Of a stretch of 64,000 nucleotides of DNA, positions 36,884-62,131 are shown one piece after another; positions within the stretch are counted from its first letter, which is position 1; the number at the start of each line of letters is the position of its first letter. This stretch comes from Holtermannia corniformis. Lineage: Eukaryota; Basidiomycota; Tremellomycetes; Holtermanniales. Under the pieces are notes generated by a model. The model did no database searches. It saw nothing but the letters and a program-made list of their open reading frames with translations, and was not told where the DNA came from. The position numbers and the translations under genes are program-made. The stretch spans positions 62,001 to 126,000 of the forward strand of contig BCIJ01000033.1 in the NCBI GenBank assembly GCA_001599935.1, given 5' to 3'.

Positions 36884-36891
36884 GTCTAGAC
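36884..36891. repeat. hAT target-site duplication, left copy (GTCTAGAC)
   Basis: These eight bases directly flank the left terminal inverted repeat and are repeated exactly at 41533-41540. The length and the nTnnnnAn pattern are those of hAT insertions. Confidence 0.97.
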
Positions 36892-36915
36892 CAAAGATGT
36901 TAGCCCGTCATCGGG
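36892..36915 (+). repeat. hAT left terminal inverted repeat (24 bp)
   Basis: The repeat starts CAAAGATGTTAGCC and ends CATCGGG. It is the exact reverse complement of 41509-41532. The first five bases fit the YARNG pattern of hAT ends. Confidence 0.97.
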
Positions 36916-37062
36916 AAATCTGATTACGTAAGCCGTTACGGGCAATTTACGGGCCCCGTCGCCCGTAATTTACGGGCAAATCCCATAAGTCCTTACGGGG
37001 CCCGTAACCCGTAAAGGGTCTAACGCTCATTTACGGGCGAGTTTACGGGTCTTACGGGCGAG
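36916..37062 (+). repeat. Left subterminal TTACGGG/CCCGTAA array
   Basis: About 11 copies of ACGGG or its complement occur in under 150 bases, mostly as TTACGGG, in both orientations. They are probable transposase-binding sites. Confidence 0.85.
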
Positions 37063-37291
37063 CTTTTTTTTTAAACGCAGCAAACCGTCCTGGTTCTCTG
37101 TAGAGCCATTGGGGCTACTCTCAACATCATTTACGTCCACCGTCTTGTCCGGGTTGGCTTGCCCATTGGCCCGTAAAGGCTCTGTGCAGTATTGCCGCGA
37201 AACGCCGTGGCTGGGGGTTAAGCCTCAAGCCTCGTACTACGGCATCTTGATCGTCATCTTTGCCGTCTACAACCACCCAGGCCTTGTCAGA

Positions 37292-40200
37292 ATGTCGGCA
37301 GATGACGCTGCCAAGCTCGAGAATGAGGTACTTGCCCTGGAATGGCAGTTCACCATGCAAGGTAAGTCGAAATCGCTGACAACGGTCTAATCACGATCTG
37401 ACCCAATTTAGAGCTTCAGCACGTCTACGGCATGCAGGACGTCACTGCCTTCCACGCCAATACACGGCTTGATCCCGAGGATCAAGCTGGTTCCTGGCGA
37501 GAATGCCTCCAAAAGCTGCAGGCGCATCTGCTCAAGTATCCAAAGGCGTACTCGGTCCCTGAGCCGGCACCTGAGCTCATGGGCGAGCCCATGAGCAAAG
37601 AGGCTATCACTGCGTGGAACACGGCTCGGGAGGCAGCCCATGCTGCCCTGCCGGCGGCGCAGAAGGCCAAGATCCGTGAGTTTCGAAGCTGAGACAGTCT
37701 GGGTGGCGCGGGTAGTCTTACCAAGACAGGAAAACGCCCCAATCCCCTTGCGCAGCCGCAGCGCTCATCGTCACGTCTTCAAAAGACCAAAAACGCAGGT
37801 CCGTAAAGCATGACGGGTTGACGGGCTTACGGGCTTACGGTCGCAGAGGCTGGTTCCTCGAGAGGCCCTTCTTGGACTGCGTCTCAGCAGCCAGACATCG
37901 AGCTTGGGGAGCTCGTGGATGAGGTGGATGCTCCGCCTATCAAGAATAAAAAAGGCAAGGGTAAAGCAGCGGCGGTCAAACGCAAACCTGCGACACAAGC
38001 GCCAGCCGCGGACGACGAAGAGGACGAGCTCAACAACGTTCTCGACGAGCCTGCTGTCGAGAAGCCGCGCAAGAAGATCAGGCCGCTCAATCCAGTAACA
38101 CCAAGTGACGCTGGGTCAACTCCTTCGGCGCCTACCACTCGCGGCAAGGGTAGTGCCAAGAAGAACAAGGGCCTATGGCAGTACGAAGCGCAGCCGACCG
38201 ACGACGAGCTCCTCGCCCGCCTCCAAAAGGCATGCACGGATCAGATTGGAAAGGGTCAACCGTGCTTTGCCGCTTGTTTCCATCCGCCCCAGCTCTCCTC
38301 GCCTGAAGAAGCCAAAAGGGGCAAGCTGCCGTCGCGTGAGGTGATTGATGAGAATCCGTGGGTCAAACGGATGGTCACATTTCGCTGTAGGTCAGTGCCC
38401 GTAAGCCCGTAAGCCCGTAAAACTGTGGTTGACTCTGAAGTCCAGGCTTTGCAGCTACTTCTTCGTCCGTTCTGCAATCAAAGGGACAGAGGGAGGGTCT
38501 CTGAAGAGCCACTGGCAATCCCATGGCAGCCCATCGCTGTCAACGATCGACGGCTCCCAACAGACCACGCTCACCTCCTCTGGGAGGGTCAAGTCTGAGC
38601 TTACGCACGACTTCTTCACCTACGCAATGGTGACAAGCTTTGCTCGGCACAACAGGCCCTTTTTATGTGCAGAGGACCAAATCGTGAGTCGTTTTACGGG
38701 TTTACGGGTTTACGGGCTGGCGCTGACAGATGTAGTTCACTCTCCTGGGCCAGACACAGTCACCTGCTATCGATCCGCCCTCGCGACAACACGTCGCCGC
38801 CATGACTGTTGAGTTCTACGCGTACATGCGGCCCCTTGTGGCCCGGCGCGTATTGGAGGACATGGGGTCGGGTGTACTGCACATCAGCCTCGACGGCTGG
38901 ACATCGCCCAATCATAGCAGCTTTATCGGGCTATGCGGCACGTACAGGGCGAAGGACGGAACCCTCAAGACGATGCTGCTTGATTTCATCCAGTCAGTAA
39001 CATCGCTAGAATGTTCCACGCTGACTCTACGCAGTAATCGTCGTTCGCACACTGGAGTACACCTTGCAGAGAGCGTGATCAACTCGCTCGTGGATATGGG
39101 TCTCGCATCCAAAGTGAGTCATGCACCCGTAACCCGTAACCCGTAACCCCGTAATGACTTTGCAGGTCTTTTCCGTTACTCTGGACAACGCCTCCAACAA
39201 CAACACTCTTGTCGCGAGTATTGCCGAGCGCAAGGACGCCCTTCCCCTGTTCCCGGGTACCGCGCACCGCATCAGGTGCTTTGCGCACATCATCGCACTG
39301 ACAGTCAAGGTACGAGCGCCCGTAATCCCGTAAATCCATCTGCTGAAGCAAGCAGGCCTTTCTGTCACCGTTTTCGTCGCGCGAGGCTATCCGCACCGTC
39401 ACCAACGGACTTGACGATGCAGAATTTAGCGCTGAGGCCAGCACCACCAATGCTGTCGATCCCAACCAGGCCAAGTTCGTTGCGATCATCGACGCGGCCG
39501 AGGAAGACGACCCAGACGACGAAGACATCGACGGGGAGCTGGCAAATGCCGAAGACGAACTGCGCGACGTGGACTCGGCGGAACAGGCCCATTCTGATCA
39601 AGTCATTGTTCGAGAACTCATCAAAGTCGACGCGCAATTCACCAACACGCCTGACAAGGACAAGCTGGTCGCCGAGTTGAAGGCGGACAAGACTACAATG
39701 TACCGTTGCCAGAATCTGATCATAAAGGTACGCCCGTAGACCCGTAAATCCGTAAATCCGTAACTTACCTATATAGACACGGCTGTTGGCCAAACGTACC
39801 GCTTTGTGGCCCTCATATCGTCAAGCTTGGGTTAGCGCTGCCGCAGCTGTCCAAGCGAGCATGCCGGTACACGAGAGAAGCAAGCTGAGTACGCGGCTCA
39901 TCCCTCGTGACGTTCCAACGCGCTGGAACTCTACGTGTGACATGCTGCTGGCAGCTAAGAAGGCCCAAGCCGTTGTGTGAGTCACCTGCTTTATTACATG
40001 ATCAATGTACTGATTGCATTACGCAGTCAGCATTTCTACTTGCAGTCCTTCGTCCTCGGCACCGATGGTCGTAAGGTGTTCACCAAGGAGACCAAGCTTG
40101 ACGATGAGGACTGGACAATGATGCGCGGACTGCTAGCTGGTCTTTGTGTGAGTTTACGGGTTTACGGGTTTACGGGTTTACGGGTTTACGGTTCTATGGC

Positions 40201-41294
40201 ACGACGGGTTGAAGCGGCTAACCATGCTATCAGCCACTTCAACAGATCACCATGGAGTTCCAGCTCAGCGGCAACAAGGCCAACACTACATCGTCCTTTG
40301 CAACGGTCGCATCTGTCGTGCCCAGGATCGACGGCCTGACTGGCGTCTTCACCGGTATTTGCGTCAATGAGGCCCTGCCGCTAGCGATTCGCCTGGGCGC
40401 CAAACTTGCAGTCAACTGTCTCAACAAGTACTACGCCAAATCGGATGAGTCGACATTGTATCGAGCAGGAATCTGTGAGCTTATCTTACGGGTTTACGGG
40501 CGATGGGATACATACTCAAGCTAATACGGCTGACAGTGCTCCATCCCTCACTTCGCATGCAGTACCTCACCGACCAGAAATGGCCCAAAGCGTGGAAAGA
40601 TGCGGCGTTGGAAACCGTCCGCCAATTGTATACGCGATACCAGCAAGTCGATTCCTCTCCAGTCGAAGAAGTCTTCCCAGAGTCATCGGTAAGTAGCGTA
40701 AGCACGTGATCCCGTAAGCCCGTAACGGTTTACGGGATTACGGGATCACGTGCTTATTGGTGTTTTCGACTGTTGCTGACCATGTTCAGTTGAGGGACGC
40801 CGCAGATGAATTCGGCGAGTTCAACATTGGTACCGTCAAGGCTGCAGGCGCCAGTAAACCTCCCAAAGACCCCTTGCACGTGTTCGTGCAAGGCACACCG
40901 TCGAGTGGTCCAGACGGGAGCATCAGGGACGGTCTTACCTGGTGGAGCAATTCGGTGGTCCCTGGGCAACCTGACTACTCGAACGGTATCCGCCAAATGG
41001 CCTTGGATGTCCTGAGTGCCTGTGGTGAGCAGTTGATACGGGATTACGGGATTACGGGATTACGGGCTGATCAATGTAGCAACATCGGTCGCTCCAGAGC
41101 GGGCCTTTTCGCTGGCCGGTCTGACGGTATCGCAACGGCGTCACCGCCTTTCGCCAGGCTCGATCACTGCCACACAATGTCTTGGCTCGTGGGTACGAGC
41201 AGGCCTGGTGTCTACCACAAACTGGAGGGAGTTCAAAGAGAGCAGTGCAGAGGCGTCTACAGATTCGGAAGCCGGAGACAATAATGCGGAATAG
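37292..41294 (+). CDS. hAT transposase, apparently intact (about 1036 residues)
   Basis: Fourteen exons (37292-37361, 37412-37675, 37847-38390, 38455-38683, 38736-38992, 39035-39113, 39166-39309, 39356-39727, 39777-39976, 40027-40147, 40246-40474, 40537-40688, 40790-41024, 41080-41294) total 3111 bases, an exact multiple of three, with every junction GT-AG and in phase. The N-terminal third has a basic region (NKKGKGKAAAVKRKP) and a possible degenerate zinc finger. The RNase-H-like catalytic core shows the first Asp in ISLDGWTSPNHSSF, the second in VTLDNASNN, the hAT C-x2-H motif in RIRCFAHIIALTVK, and TRWNST. A Glu/Asp-rich insertion (EEDDPDDEDIDGE) follows. The C-terminal dimerisation motif reads ATSVAPERAFSLAGLTVSQR. 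No earlier ATG is in frame. Confidence 0.93.
40699..40756 (+). repeat. 19-bp perfect inverted repeat inside transposase intron 12
   Basis: TAAGCACGTGATCCCGTAA (40699-40717) is the exact reverse complement of 40738-40756, with a 20-base spacer that extends the pairing imperfectly. It would form a strong RNA hairpin inside the 101-base intron 40689-40789, and each arm carries a CACGTG and a CCCGTAA. Confidence 0.9.
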
Positions 41295-41355
41295 ACTGTA
41301 TGCATTGTACGTCAACTACCCGTAAGTTTGATCATACGTGAGCTACCGGCGGTGC

Positions 41356-41508
41356 GCCCGTAAGCTTTTTGACGGGATTACGGGCATTTACGGGTGCTTT
41401 ACGGGAAATGCCCGTAATTTACGGGAATGCCCGTAAACCCGTCAAAATGCCCGTAGTCCGTAACGCCTCTGGCGGTCATTTACGGGCGATCCCGTAACCC
41501 GTAAGCCG
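41356..41508 (+). repeat. Right subterminal TTACGGG/CCCGTAA array
   Basis: About a dozen ACGGG or CCCGT copies in mixed orientation lie just inside the right terminal repeat, mirroring the left array. Confidence 0.85.
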
Positions 41509-41532
41509 CCCGATGACGGGCTAACATCTTTG
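41509..41532 (-). repeat. hAT right terminal inverted repeat (24 bp)
   Basis: Exact reverse complement of 36892-36915; followed at once by the right target-site duplication. Confidence 0.97.
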
Positions 41533-41540
41533 GTCTAGAC
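41533..41540. repeat. hAT target-site duplication, right copy (GTCTAGAC)
   Basis: Identical to 36884-36891. The eight-base target is itself a perfect palindrome. Confidence 0.97.
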
Positions 41541-58404: not shown

Positions 58405-61400
58405 TCAGCACGCGGCTAGGATCCGTTGCGCATTCCTAGACAGATCCCAGCTCTCCCGTAGATAGCCAAGCGCTTGATGATCACCCTCGAGCTGTCCCGT
58501 CGTCGCGCTCAGCGCGACCCAGACGGCATCGGCGTCTCTGTCGACGAGCCCGAGGTACAGTTCGACCGCGTTGGCCTGCAGCTCGTCGTTTGCTTTCGCA
58601 TCGAGGAACGGGCGGAAGGTGAGGATGATTTGCCACAGGACGTCGTCGACGACCGGGACCTCGTGCACCACATGCGTCATGGTCGCGACGATTGCCATAT
58701 GCAACCGGTGCGAGTTCGAGTACGCCGTCGTGGTGCCGGGCACATGGCCGCCTCGTCGGACCAAAGCCGACTTGCTGTCAGCCAGCGCTTGAGCTTGGAG
58801 CAGGCGCTTGAACGCAGGCCACGCCTCGTCTAGTACTCGTTTGGCCATAAAGTCGCCGACGTGTGCTGCGAGCGCCTCGACAAGAGCAGCCGCCTCGGTG
58901 ACGACGTACGGCTCGGGATCGGTCAGCCGGTTGAGAATGTACGGCCACGCGCTGTTGACGATGGGCAAGAGATCGCTCTCGCGCGTGCCGCTGACGAGCA
59001 CAGGCACAGCGCTCGTAAAGAGCGAGCACACGCGGGCGCGCAGGAACCCAGAGTGGTGCGTGAGGAAAAACGCAGCCTTGCGCAGGATCTGCGTGCACAC
59101 TTGCTGAGCGCGCGTCGGTGCCGTCTCGGTCTCGTCCGGGCCGCCATTCGCGGCCGACTCGGCCTCATCCGCATCCTTGCCCCAAGCGCGATGCGGTGCG
59201 GTTTCGAGGATTTCCTCAATCTCTGTGCGCGCGAGCTCGGCCCGGGCTTGATGCCATTTGACAAAGTTTGCGAAATCAGCCTCTGGGTTGGGTGCGTTCT
59301 CGATCCGGCGCATATCGGCTCGCTTTTGCAAAAACGCTTCACTCGGTGGCTGCGCACTGGCCTCAACCTCCATCGCCTTGATCAGGGTGACGAGAACGGC
59401 AAGCAGAGTCGAGGCCAGGGTTTCGTAGCCGTGAAAGTCGTCGAGGGCGTCAAAGATCTCGTCGATAATGTCGTGCACGAGCGGGACGATGGGTTCACCA
59501 ACCAAGCGGATCATGGCGATCAGCACGAGTGGCGCTTGCGAGCTCAAGCGCTTGTATGTGAGTCGTTGTGAGACGACGTTGATCACGTAGTCGACATTGT
59601 CGATCACGAGGTTCTGAGCAGAGGCGTAGCCCGTGTGATAGGCGACCCGGACGAGCGCGACCTCGGCAAACGACTGGATGAGGCCATGTGGCGAGGCGAG
59701 GTGCGAGAGTAACATGTAGAGCGAGTTGAGCAGCAGCGGTCGAAACGACGTCGAGAGGATACGCGAGGTAACAGAGAGCAACGAGAGCGTAAACGCCGTC
59801 ACGAGGCCTCGTTGCGTTTGGTGATGCCGCCGCCGGGTTTCACTCGCTGCCGCCGACGACGGTCTCGGCGTGCGATCCAGCAACGTCGTGATTGCGTGGA
59901 CTCCCTTGGATCGCTCGACCGGCACGAGCGCGTCCGAGTCTTCAAGTGGTCGATCCTCTTGTTCCGCAACGTCGTCGTCCTCATCCTCGTCGAGCTCGAC
60001 CAGCGTCCGCGCAACGTCCTTTGCGAGCTTGCGCAATCGCTTTTCGGGCTGGGCGAGTACGCCGTCGCTCAGCTCTTGCACACTGTCAAAGATGCCGTCG
60101 AGGACGCGCTCGGCGAGCCAGAGTGCCGAAGCGGCCTTTGCGACGTCGACGCCACGACGTTTGGCTTTGGCGAGACGCACAAAGTAATCGACAGTGTACA
60201 ATGCGCCAGTTCCCGCCGCCTTGCCGAGAGCGGTGAGCATGCGGGCGAGCGCTTTGGCCGTCTGCGCGGACGAGACATGGCGCAGCGGGACAGTAGGGAA
60301 TGGCGTCTGTAACGCATCCAGCGCGGCCGACTGCTCGTTGACGTTGTCCAGCAGGAAAGGCGCCGACGTCCCAAGCAAGCCTTGCTCCCATCCCCTCTGC
60401 GATGTCCGTTCCGCGCTCGCCGCCATCGAGTCCCAGCCGGCCGGCCTGCCAAACTCGAGGCAAGTGAGTAGAGCCCAACCCCATTTCTCAATCCCGCCCG
60501 TGGGACCAAAGATGCCGGCTATCATGCCGTCTGCAAATTCTGCGACTTCGGCAATAGCCGTCACTAGCAGTGTTGTTTGTTCGACCTTTGTGCCCTGCTC
60601 GGTCATGATGAGGCGTGGGAGGTTGTTGATGGCGGATCCGAGGAGGTCGAGCATGACGGGTTCGAGAGCTGCAGCGGTGGCCGAGGACGTCAAGAGGGTG
60701 CGGAGCTGCCTGCGCGCGTGGTGGCGGACTGGGTCAAAGGTGTCGAGACTGGCTGTCAGCATGCAATTGAGCGTGTGCTGATGCAGCTGCGGCAGTGAAT
60801 CGAGACATGAAGTGATCAGCCGGGCTGATAGGTTGATCGCGGCCGTCCGCGCTGTTGTCGACGTGTGCGCCGAGAGGACGTCGAGGATCGATGGGATAGC
60901 GGCTCGTAGCTGAGTCTCAGTGAATGCGAGGTATGAAGGCGTGAGCGCCGGAAAGGGGTCGGCGGCGGTCGATGTCGAAGCAGCCGAAGGCGCTGGTGAC
61001 GCCGGCACAGGCGACGCCTGTTTTTTCTCCCATTCCTCTGCGAGTTGCTCGAGCCCTCCGAGCTTGACATCGAGCACGCTTCGGTCCCGCAGCAGCTCGT
61101 CGCCGAGGGTACCGACGATGACCTCGCCCAGGAGCGCAGCGAGACGTTCTGCAACGTCGCCTTTGAGATGCATGCGTTCGCCAGCGACAAGCTTGCTCAT
61201 GGTACTAACGATGCCTGGTAGCACGCTCGCCAGCATCTCTGGTCTGTCCTCGAGGTAGACGGCGACAAGAGGTTGCAGGAGCTCGAGGGCGGCTAGCTGG
61301 AGCGCGAGGTACGGCGGGGAAGGCATGGTGAGGTCGAGGAGGATGGACAGGGTGGTGAACAGTGTTGGGAGTAGGCTGCCGGTTGCTTTGGGATCTGCGA

Positions 61401-62131
61401 GTCTTGCCAGCATCCCTAGAGTCGGGTGATCGCTTGCCGGCGCGAGTAGAGCTGCAAGGAGCTTGACGCCGGCTAGCTGAGCTTCCTGGCTCATAGCTCG
61501 CTTCTTGCCCTTGTTCCCTGGTGCCGCAACCGCCTGCGATCCACCACCGGTCGGTACAGGCCCACCGAGCGAGAGCACGGTAAAGCGCCAGAGTTGCTCC
61601 CACAGCGCTTGCTCGATCCCCTGTCCCGACGTCTTGCACTTGTCCATCAAGATTGCGAGGACTGTGAATGCGCGGTCGAGAAACGCATCAGGCAAGGTCG
61701 CAGGGTTGGACCGACGGAGGACGTTGGTGACCGGGTACATGATGTATGATACCATGCCCGGTGTGAACGCTTCGAGTGGAAAGGACGGAAGGAGAGCTTG
61801 GATGTTTGCGAGCAGGCGAGCGTGCTGTGAGTACGCTGTAGGCTGGTCTTGTGAGATGCTCATGAGGGCGACGCAGATGGGCTTGACCTGACGCTGTCAG
61901 CTCACCCACTACGTCGAGGGGCCGCGGACCGCGGACCTTGCGAAAGGCGTCCATCTTGGCTCTGTCTGCATCGTTGAGCGGTTTGATGCCTTGTCGCTGC
62001 TGCTGCTGCTGTCTTGGCAGGTCTGGGAGCGGCTGATCCATGCTGGAGGTGGTGGTCGAACTCGGTGGTGCAAACAGTCCCATGTTGCTCAGCCTTGGAT
62101 CAGGCGGGCTCCCTGTCCGTACGGGCGCCAT
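58405..62131 (-). CDS. TTI1: TTI1, subunit of the TTT chaperone complex
   Basis: Two exons give about 1230 residues: a first exon from ATG 62131 (MAPVRTGSPPDPRLSNMGLF, then poly-Gln and FRK) joined across 61936-61890 to one very long exon. The whole long exon reads as HEAT-type alpha-helical repeats. N-terminal landmarks are VKPICVALMS and LPDAFLDRAFTVLAILMDKC. The C-terminal TTI1 region includes ILRKAAFFLTHHSGFLRARV, LLPIVNSAWPYILNRLTDPE and VVTEAAALVEALAAHVGDFM. Tti1 works with Tel2 and Tti2 and Hsp90 to mature PIKK kinases (TOR, ATM/ATR, Tra1) and belongs to ASTRA. The gene appears complete. Confidence 0.88.

Follow-up and report, generated by a model that had tools for sequence, protein, structure and literature searches.

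Why should a DNA transposon carry the short motif of its own ends, many times over, in the introns of its transposase gene? The question is raised by F1, a hAT element in a 64,000-nucleotide stretch of the genome of the tremellomycete fungus Holtermannia corniformis (GenBank assembly GCA_001599935.1, contig BCIJ01000033.1, positions 62,001 to 126,000 of the forward strand; hereafter, the window). F1 occupies positions 36892..41532 on the + strand (4641 bp), looks intact, and is the sole full-length copy among the genome matches listed. It has an 8-bp target site duplication (TSD), short terminal inverted repeats (TIRs) and a C-terminal dimerization domain found by a Pfam search (PF05699, Dimer_Tnp_hAT; E 3.2e-8), all of which mark it as a hAT element; comparison with PDB sequences gave a weak match to the Hermes C-terminus (E 0.0023-0.0035). 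An initial annotation had reported the F1 end motif, TTACGGG, in introns of the transposase gene. That observation is real and extends beyond F1 to a second family, F2, in which the well-supported pattern is replicated with a different motif. We hypothesize that the intron arrays are binding sites for the element's own transposase, expanded in place and kept for self-recognition, most likely for anti-silencing of the kind served by the VANC proteins of Arabidopsis; we give this reading about an even chance of being right.

The motif was counted in both orientations (TTACGGG/CCCGTAA), with the ends of F1 taken as the 638 bp outside the coding span. There are 22 exact copies in the ends (34.5/kb) and 27 in the 814 bp of introns (33.2/kb), the latter spread over 10 of the 14 introns; 200 dinucleotide shuffles of the introns gave a mean of 0.73 and a maximum of 3. 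As the initial annotation had stated, no exact copy lies in the exons (3189 bp; mean 0.20 in 200 synonymous-codon shuffles). With up to one mismatch allowed, the ends hold 29 copies, the introns 36 (shuffle mean 5.61, maximum 11) and the exons 2, compared with an exon mean of 5.73 in 1000 synonymous shuffles, 5.6% of which had two or fewer. The comparison of intron and exon density with shuffled controls that had been proposed thus comes out unequal: introns are far above chance, and exons are at or slightly below it without being strongly depleted. The rest of the window contains 2 exact matches in 59.3 kb. Across all 20.2 Mb of the genome, TTACGGG formed 58 listed close direct pairs, versus 3 for a reversed control pattern; of the 58, 23 are within F1 (16 of those in introns) and 35 elsewhere. 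Inside F1-matching stretches, meaning F1 or fragments of its ends, lie 56 of the 58, and the remaining two (C4:42736 and C32:1813) are at most 350 bp from such a stretch. The motif is therefore not common across unrelated genes, a distribution that the initial annotation had named as a possible refutation, and no TTACGGG array was seen in a host intron among the pairs listed. Chance and a genome-wide repeat are ruled out by the shuffles and these pair counts.

The initial annotation had found the motif in 10 of 13 introns; the ten hold, and the total is 14. What it took for intron 2 (37676-37846) is more plausibly a pair of introns separated by an open exon of 69 bp; F2 likewise has 14 introns, equal in phase at all 14. 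The five near-perfect copies described in the present intron 11 are four exact copies and one with a mismatch, and the three in the present intron 14 are all exact, joined by a fourth with a mismatch. Tandem exact copies with a period of 7 or 8 bp are found in eight introns. Orientation varies, as had been noticed (five introns +, four - and one both), which fits recognition of a double-stranded site. Of 17 neighboring pairs of copies in introns, 16 share an orientation and a spacing of 7-8 bp, compared with 2 of 20 in the ends, and this difference in spacing and orientation argues that the intron arrays are not copied tracts of the ends. The motif itself is shared by both compartments, with per-column profiles that are alike and A, G and G invariant in each. 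The base adjoining the 7-mer differs between arrays while the 7-mer remains constant, so the arrays appear to have grown independently.

Within the free body of the F1 introns, arrays take up 209 of the 450 bp counted, and splice signals and exons are spared. This supports, by inference, the earlier suggestion that introns are the space in which such sites can accumulate; the companion statement, which confined the motif to introns, went too far, as the ends are filled as well. Freedom from coding constraint is by itself insufficient, as the non-coding 5' stretch at 37063-37291 contains one exact motif in 229 bp where 7.6 would be expected at intron density (P 0.004). Array-bearing introns are not significantly longer than the others in F1 (P 0.11) and are significantly longer in F2 (P 0.006).

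A cross-species protein search gave 72 relatives at E up to 0.001 among 7996 candidates scored. Further hAT relatives are present in the genome of Holtermannia corniformis itself. F2, the best-preserved of the other families, was read from a copy on contig 10 (locus L034, reverse strand) that has single Ns. It is 5106 bp long, is flanked by the TSD TGCGGATT, and encodes a 1060-residue transposase with 359 identities to that of F1 in 992 aligned columns (36%). All 14 introns of F2 have the phase of their F1 counterparts and 11 lie at the same alignment column; introns 2, 3 and 13, which fall in poorly aligned stretches, match by phase only. The end motif is not that of F1, consisting of GCGGATA together with GATATCC/GGATATCC. 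GCGGATA, the second-ranked 7-mer of the F2 ends, was picked after the F2 introns had been seen. The F2 introns hold 14 copies of it in 938 bp (shuffles averaged 0.21, with at most 2), the ends hold 10 in 985 bp, and the exons none in 3183 bp. Exact copies are found in 8 of the 14 introns; intron 5, whose array is one base off, is counted as a ninth array-bearing intron although it lacks the exact 7-mer. Cross counts are zero for exact TTACGGG in F2 introns and for GCGGATA and GGATATCC in F1 introns; GCGGATA occurs twice in F1 exons. Genome-wide, there are 45 close pairs of GCGGATA versus 9 for the reversed pattern. Copies of F2 and of its relative F2b that were read account for 27 of these, 10 are F2/F2b end-repeat sequence by match, their surrounding loci being unread, and 8 are scattered. 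The recurrence of the pattern in F2, with a motif of its own in matching introns, is the strongest evidence against an accident.

F2b, on contig 8, is a more distant relative, its exons being 72-86% identical to those of F2 over the aligned parts. Among its readable introns (9-14), introns 9, 11 and 13 have the motif (2, 2 and 3 exact copies) and introns 10, 12 and 14 do not, the same presence and absence as in F2 for all six, with a different array layout. Seven F2 copies were compared, with 1 to 6 readable per intron on account of assembly gaps. The length of introns 3, 5 and 13 varies between copies by exactly 10 bp, or one repeat unit; for intron 9 the difference is 16 bp. Unit-wise gain and loss is thus seen in F2, F1 being a single full copy. 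The features of F1 and its two complete short derivatives are listed in Table 1.

Table 1. Features of the hAT element F1 (window coordinates) and of its short derivatives (coordinates within their own loci)
Feature	Position	Strand	Remarks
Left TSD	36884..36891	.	8 bp, GTCTAGAC; identical to 41533..41540
Left TIR	36892..36915	+	24 bp; matches right TIR perfectly
Left subterminal array	36892..37062	+	TTACGGG; orientation and spacing mixed
Transposase gene	37292..41294	+	Computed gene model; 14 introns, 1062 aa, no internal stops
Intron 1	37362..37411	+	No motif (F2 intron 1 likewise)
Intron 2	37676..37729	+	No motif; fused with intron 3 in initial annotation
Intron 3	37799..37846	+	1 exact motif plus degenerate copies
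Intron 4	38391..38445	+	3 exact CCCGTAA, period 8 bp
Intron 5	38684..38735	+	3 exact TTACGGG, period 8 bp
Intron 6	38993..39034	+	No TTACGGG; F2 counterpart without exact motif
Intron 7	39114..39165	+	4 exact CCCGTAA, period 7/8 bp
Intron 8	39310..39355	+	2 exact CCCGTAA
Intron 9	39728..39776	+	1 exact and 3 one-mismatch copies (CCGTAAAT array)
Intron 10	39977..40026	+	No TTACGGG; F2 and F2b counterparts without exact motif
Intron 11	40148..40245	+	4 exact and 1 one-mismatch TTACGGG, period 8 bp; intron 10 of initial annotation
Intron 12	40475..40536	+	2 exact TTACGGG
Intron 13	40689..40789	+	4 exact motifs in long near-perfect palindrome
Intron 14	41025..41079	+	3 exact and 1 one-mismatch TTACGGG; intron 13 of initial annotation
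Right subterminal array	41319..41532	+	
Right TIR	41509..41532	-	24 bp
Right TSD	41533..41540	.	8 bp, GTCTAGAC
MITE-like derivative (miniature inverted-repeat transposable element)	L044 609-1067		459 bp; 18 exact motifs
MITE-like derivative	L045 609-1097		489 bp; 19 exact motifs

The F1 target site is itself palindromic. The junctions of F1 introns 5-10, 12 and 14 lie within alignable homologous protein, and there are no inserts at the splice points. Elsewhere in the window, a host protein encoded at 58405-61863 has a Kwoniella shandongensis protein as its best named match (51% identity), and another match reaches 52%.

The initial annotation had also suggested that the arrays seeded the introns. 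Array-free relatives with introns at the same positions contradict this. In family F3 (contig 3), 8 of 10 introns coincide in column and phase; its intron 13 is one column off, and intron 14 could not be placed, the joined reading being out of frame near the end. In F4 (contig 34), which was readable upstream of its interruption only, 5 of 5 introns coincide in column and phase. Both families have end repeats: GCGTCA occurs 14 times in 600 bp of F3 ends and once in 462 bp of its introns, and AGCCAA occurs 5 times in the one F4 end examined and not at all in 230 bp of introns. The introns therefore either predate the arrays or are independent of them, and creation of introns by the arrays (introner-type gain) is ruled out. 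A fifth family, F5, is represented by fragments only; its end motif, TTACGGA, occurs five times in 260 bp and five times in 200 bp of the ends, and none was found in introns 1, 2 and 14. Several further observations concern these relatives. In the F4 copy (L054), unrelated sequence apparently breaks the element at intron 10, and two F5 fragments (L056 on contig 2 and L057 on contig 15) stop in or just past intron 2, the former running into retroelement-like sequence and the latter into an assembly gap. Weak matches to the hAT dimerization domain occur on contig 38 near 123.8 kb, contig 22 near 4.4 kb and contig 18 near 12.3 kb.

The explanation that we favor takes the 7-bp motif to be the putative double-stranded binding site of F1's own transposase, by analogy with the Ac transposase on AAACGG and with hAT-derived CGG-binding proteins, both of which are compared below. 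Many copies of this site would be needed at the ends for transposition, and the same site would have accumulated by in-place tandem expansion in the free part of 10 of the 14 introns, exons being unable to carry arrays under coding constraint. Selection may then have favored gene-body sites recognized by the element's own protein. The likeliest benefit would be that bound transposase keeps its own gene open against host silencing, and the next choice would be negative autoregulation. A single gene model occupies the space between the F1 ends, and no separate VANC-type gene was found there. Silencing machinery against which this could be useful appears to be present in the host, where Piwi-domain (Argonaute-type) matches were obtained at two loci and C5-methylase matches over the cut-off at one. 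CpG depletion as a sign of methylation was not seen in the ends and introns of F1 and F2, for which observed/expected ratios are 1.2-1.3. More specifically, a fungal hAT lineage may have independently evolved VANC-like self-recognition with the transposase itself as the anti-silencing factor, the motif in the ends and about ten introns changing together with the specificity of the protein between F1 and F2; this we advance tentatively, as less likely than not.

Several points weigh against the favored explanation. Pfam identified the dimerization domain alone in the F1 transposase, with no match to a BED-type zinc finger, and the zinc-finger-like CxxC...HxxxH of F1 (HxxxC in F2) was picked out by eye in the alignment. 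The deficit of one-mismatch copies in exons is marginal (0.056). F3 and F4 share the introns and have end repeats, yet they lack intron arrays, as do the F5 introns seen, indicating that arrays are unnecessary for this kind of element and not inevitable. The choice of introns does not add to the case either: 8 array-bearing introns are common to F1 (10) and F2 (9), and the exact motif is missing from introns 1, 6 and 10 of either family, an agreement that is not beyond chance (P 0.095) and was rejected as a sign of common array ancestry. The motif-free intron 14 of F2 also varies between copies, by a 10-bp duplication, and slippage in these introns is therefore not limited to the motif. Finally, promoter constraint could explain the motif-poor 5' stretch that otherwise counts against simple neutral filling.

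The main rival is that the arrays are a neutral by-product of transposase action. Under neutral expansion, the transposase would bind or nick at motifs, and repair or fork stalling would expand them; arrays in exons would be purged and those in introns tolerated, without function. This would account for family specificity, tandem form and exon sparing with no selection for function, and it agrees with the unit-wise length changes between F2 copies, one of them in a motif-free intron; array-free F3 and F4 could be lines with a less active transposase. However, it presupposes that 10 of the 14 introns each started out with an exact 7-mer, when shuffled introns yield 0.73 in total, it does not predict a motif-poor non-coding 5' stretch, and F2b retains the intron pattern of F2 despite its re-laid arrays. 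We judge neutral expansion to be unlikely, while taking it seriously.

Negative autoregulation or titration shares its binding logic with the anti-silencing explanation. Transposase bound to its gene would block elongation, or the sites would soak up excess protein, and activity would drop as the protein rises. The spread of sites through the transcribed region suits this, as does the maize Ac transposase, which shows overproduction inhibition and represses its promoter. In a selfish element, however, mutations that lose such repression should spread, and we find this alternative distinctly doubtful.

Copying of end sequence into introns by template switching during post-excision gap repair is improbable. 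Gap repair at hAT elements does scramble sequence, and each family has one long near-perfect palindromic intron (intron 13 in F1 and intron 4 in F2, L034) that takes in motif copies along with non-motif flanks, a product such switching can make. Spacing and orientation in introns nonetheless depart from those in the ends, where close direct pairs are few, the flanks of intron motifs do not track those of end motifs, and a DNA search with the whole element returned, besides the self match, only the intron 13 palindrome and one match within the right end as in-element matches. RNA-level control of splicing, with the repeats as pre-mRNA signals or hairpins, is unlikely to the point of being negligible: CCCGTAAG does resemble a 5' splice site and the two palindromic introns form strong hairpins when folded as DNA (z -10.0 and -8.4; 0 of 200 shuffles as stable), but both motif strands are used, varying by intron, three of four F1 introns folded, those with direct repeats, are no better than shuffles (z 0.31, -1.34 and 0.11), and the motif is family-specific within one host.

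F1 has been mobile in the Holtermannia corniformis genome: two of nine F1-end loci examined are MITE-like, with both TIRs perfect and an 8-bp duplication (Table 1). A third has both ends but no matching duplication, and L047-L048 and L049-L052 showed no TSD pair, most having one TIR-like end and L050 none. These short derivatives support the view that ends alone can be moved, and thus that mobility does not require the intron arrays in cis. Such dispensability fits a role of the arrays in gene control, or no role.

If the arrays do serve a function, a cut-and-paste element with a single gene can use binding sites in its introns to mark the body of that gene, a mechanism of Arabidopsis Mutator-like elements would extend to another superfamily and kingdom, and two families with matching introns and two motifs in one host would provide a simple test bed. 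If, in addition, motif and protein have changed together, the introns document in legible form how protein and DNA coevolved within a single genome. Even if the arrays are neutral, a transposase has shaped the non-coding part of its own gene, and the motifs in ends and introns reveal DNA-binding specificities with no need for experiments.

A literature search of partial coverage yielded no hAT element recognized as having its end motif in its introns, which is weak evidence of absence. Partial parallels exist in several systems, as far as the portions of the sources available to us describe them. The Drosophila P element has internal transposase-binding sites and regulates its transposase gene through an intron (PMC7776569), but there RNA-binding proteins act on one intron and not on motif arrays across introns. 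Soybean CACTA families that share a genome have different subterminal motifs, and the binding proteins that they encode differ accordingly, as may those of F1 and F2; they belong to another superfamily, and the account in PMC2613891 does not mention intron arrays. Among hAT elements, the Ac transposase of maize binds AAACGG repeats within the terminal 200 bp of Ac/Ds (PMC3260210). Ac/Ds shares with F1 the 8-bp TSD, terminal repeats and the (A)CGG core common to AAACGG and TTACGGG; unlike F1, it has its repeats placed at the ends by that description, which mentions no intron arrays. The motifs of the hAT-derived CGG-binding proteins are varied, frequently include CGG, and have matches in subterminal sequence of the respective elements (PMC8097297). 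These proteins resemble F1 in joining hAT DNA-binding regions to subterminal motifs, and differ in being domesticated, with matches described at ends and element introns not discussed in that source. The closest likeness is to VANC21, a protein that attaches to its own VANDAL element in introns and other non-coding sequence, at short motifs lying in fast-changing tandem repeats (Hosaka 2017, PMC5735166; Sasaki 2023, PMC10398659). As the same two sources describe them, VANDAL elements, like F1 and F2, have a short family-specific motif in introns and in non-coding sequence at the termini, within the very element that codes for the binder; it forms tandem repeats whose copy number varies between copies, and related families have different motifs. 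VANDALs are, however, Mutator-like elements of Arabidopsis with a separate VANC protein of demonstrated binding and demethylation, whereas F1 is a fungal hAT element, known here from its sequence, in which one gene was found and the motif doubles as the end motif. The pattern in F1 and F2 would work like the VANC/VANDAL arrangement but stands outside that system.

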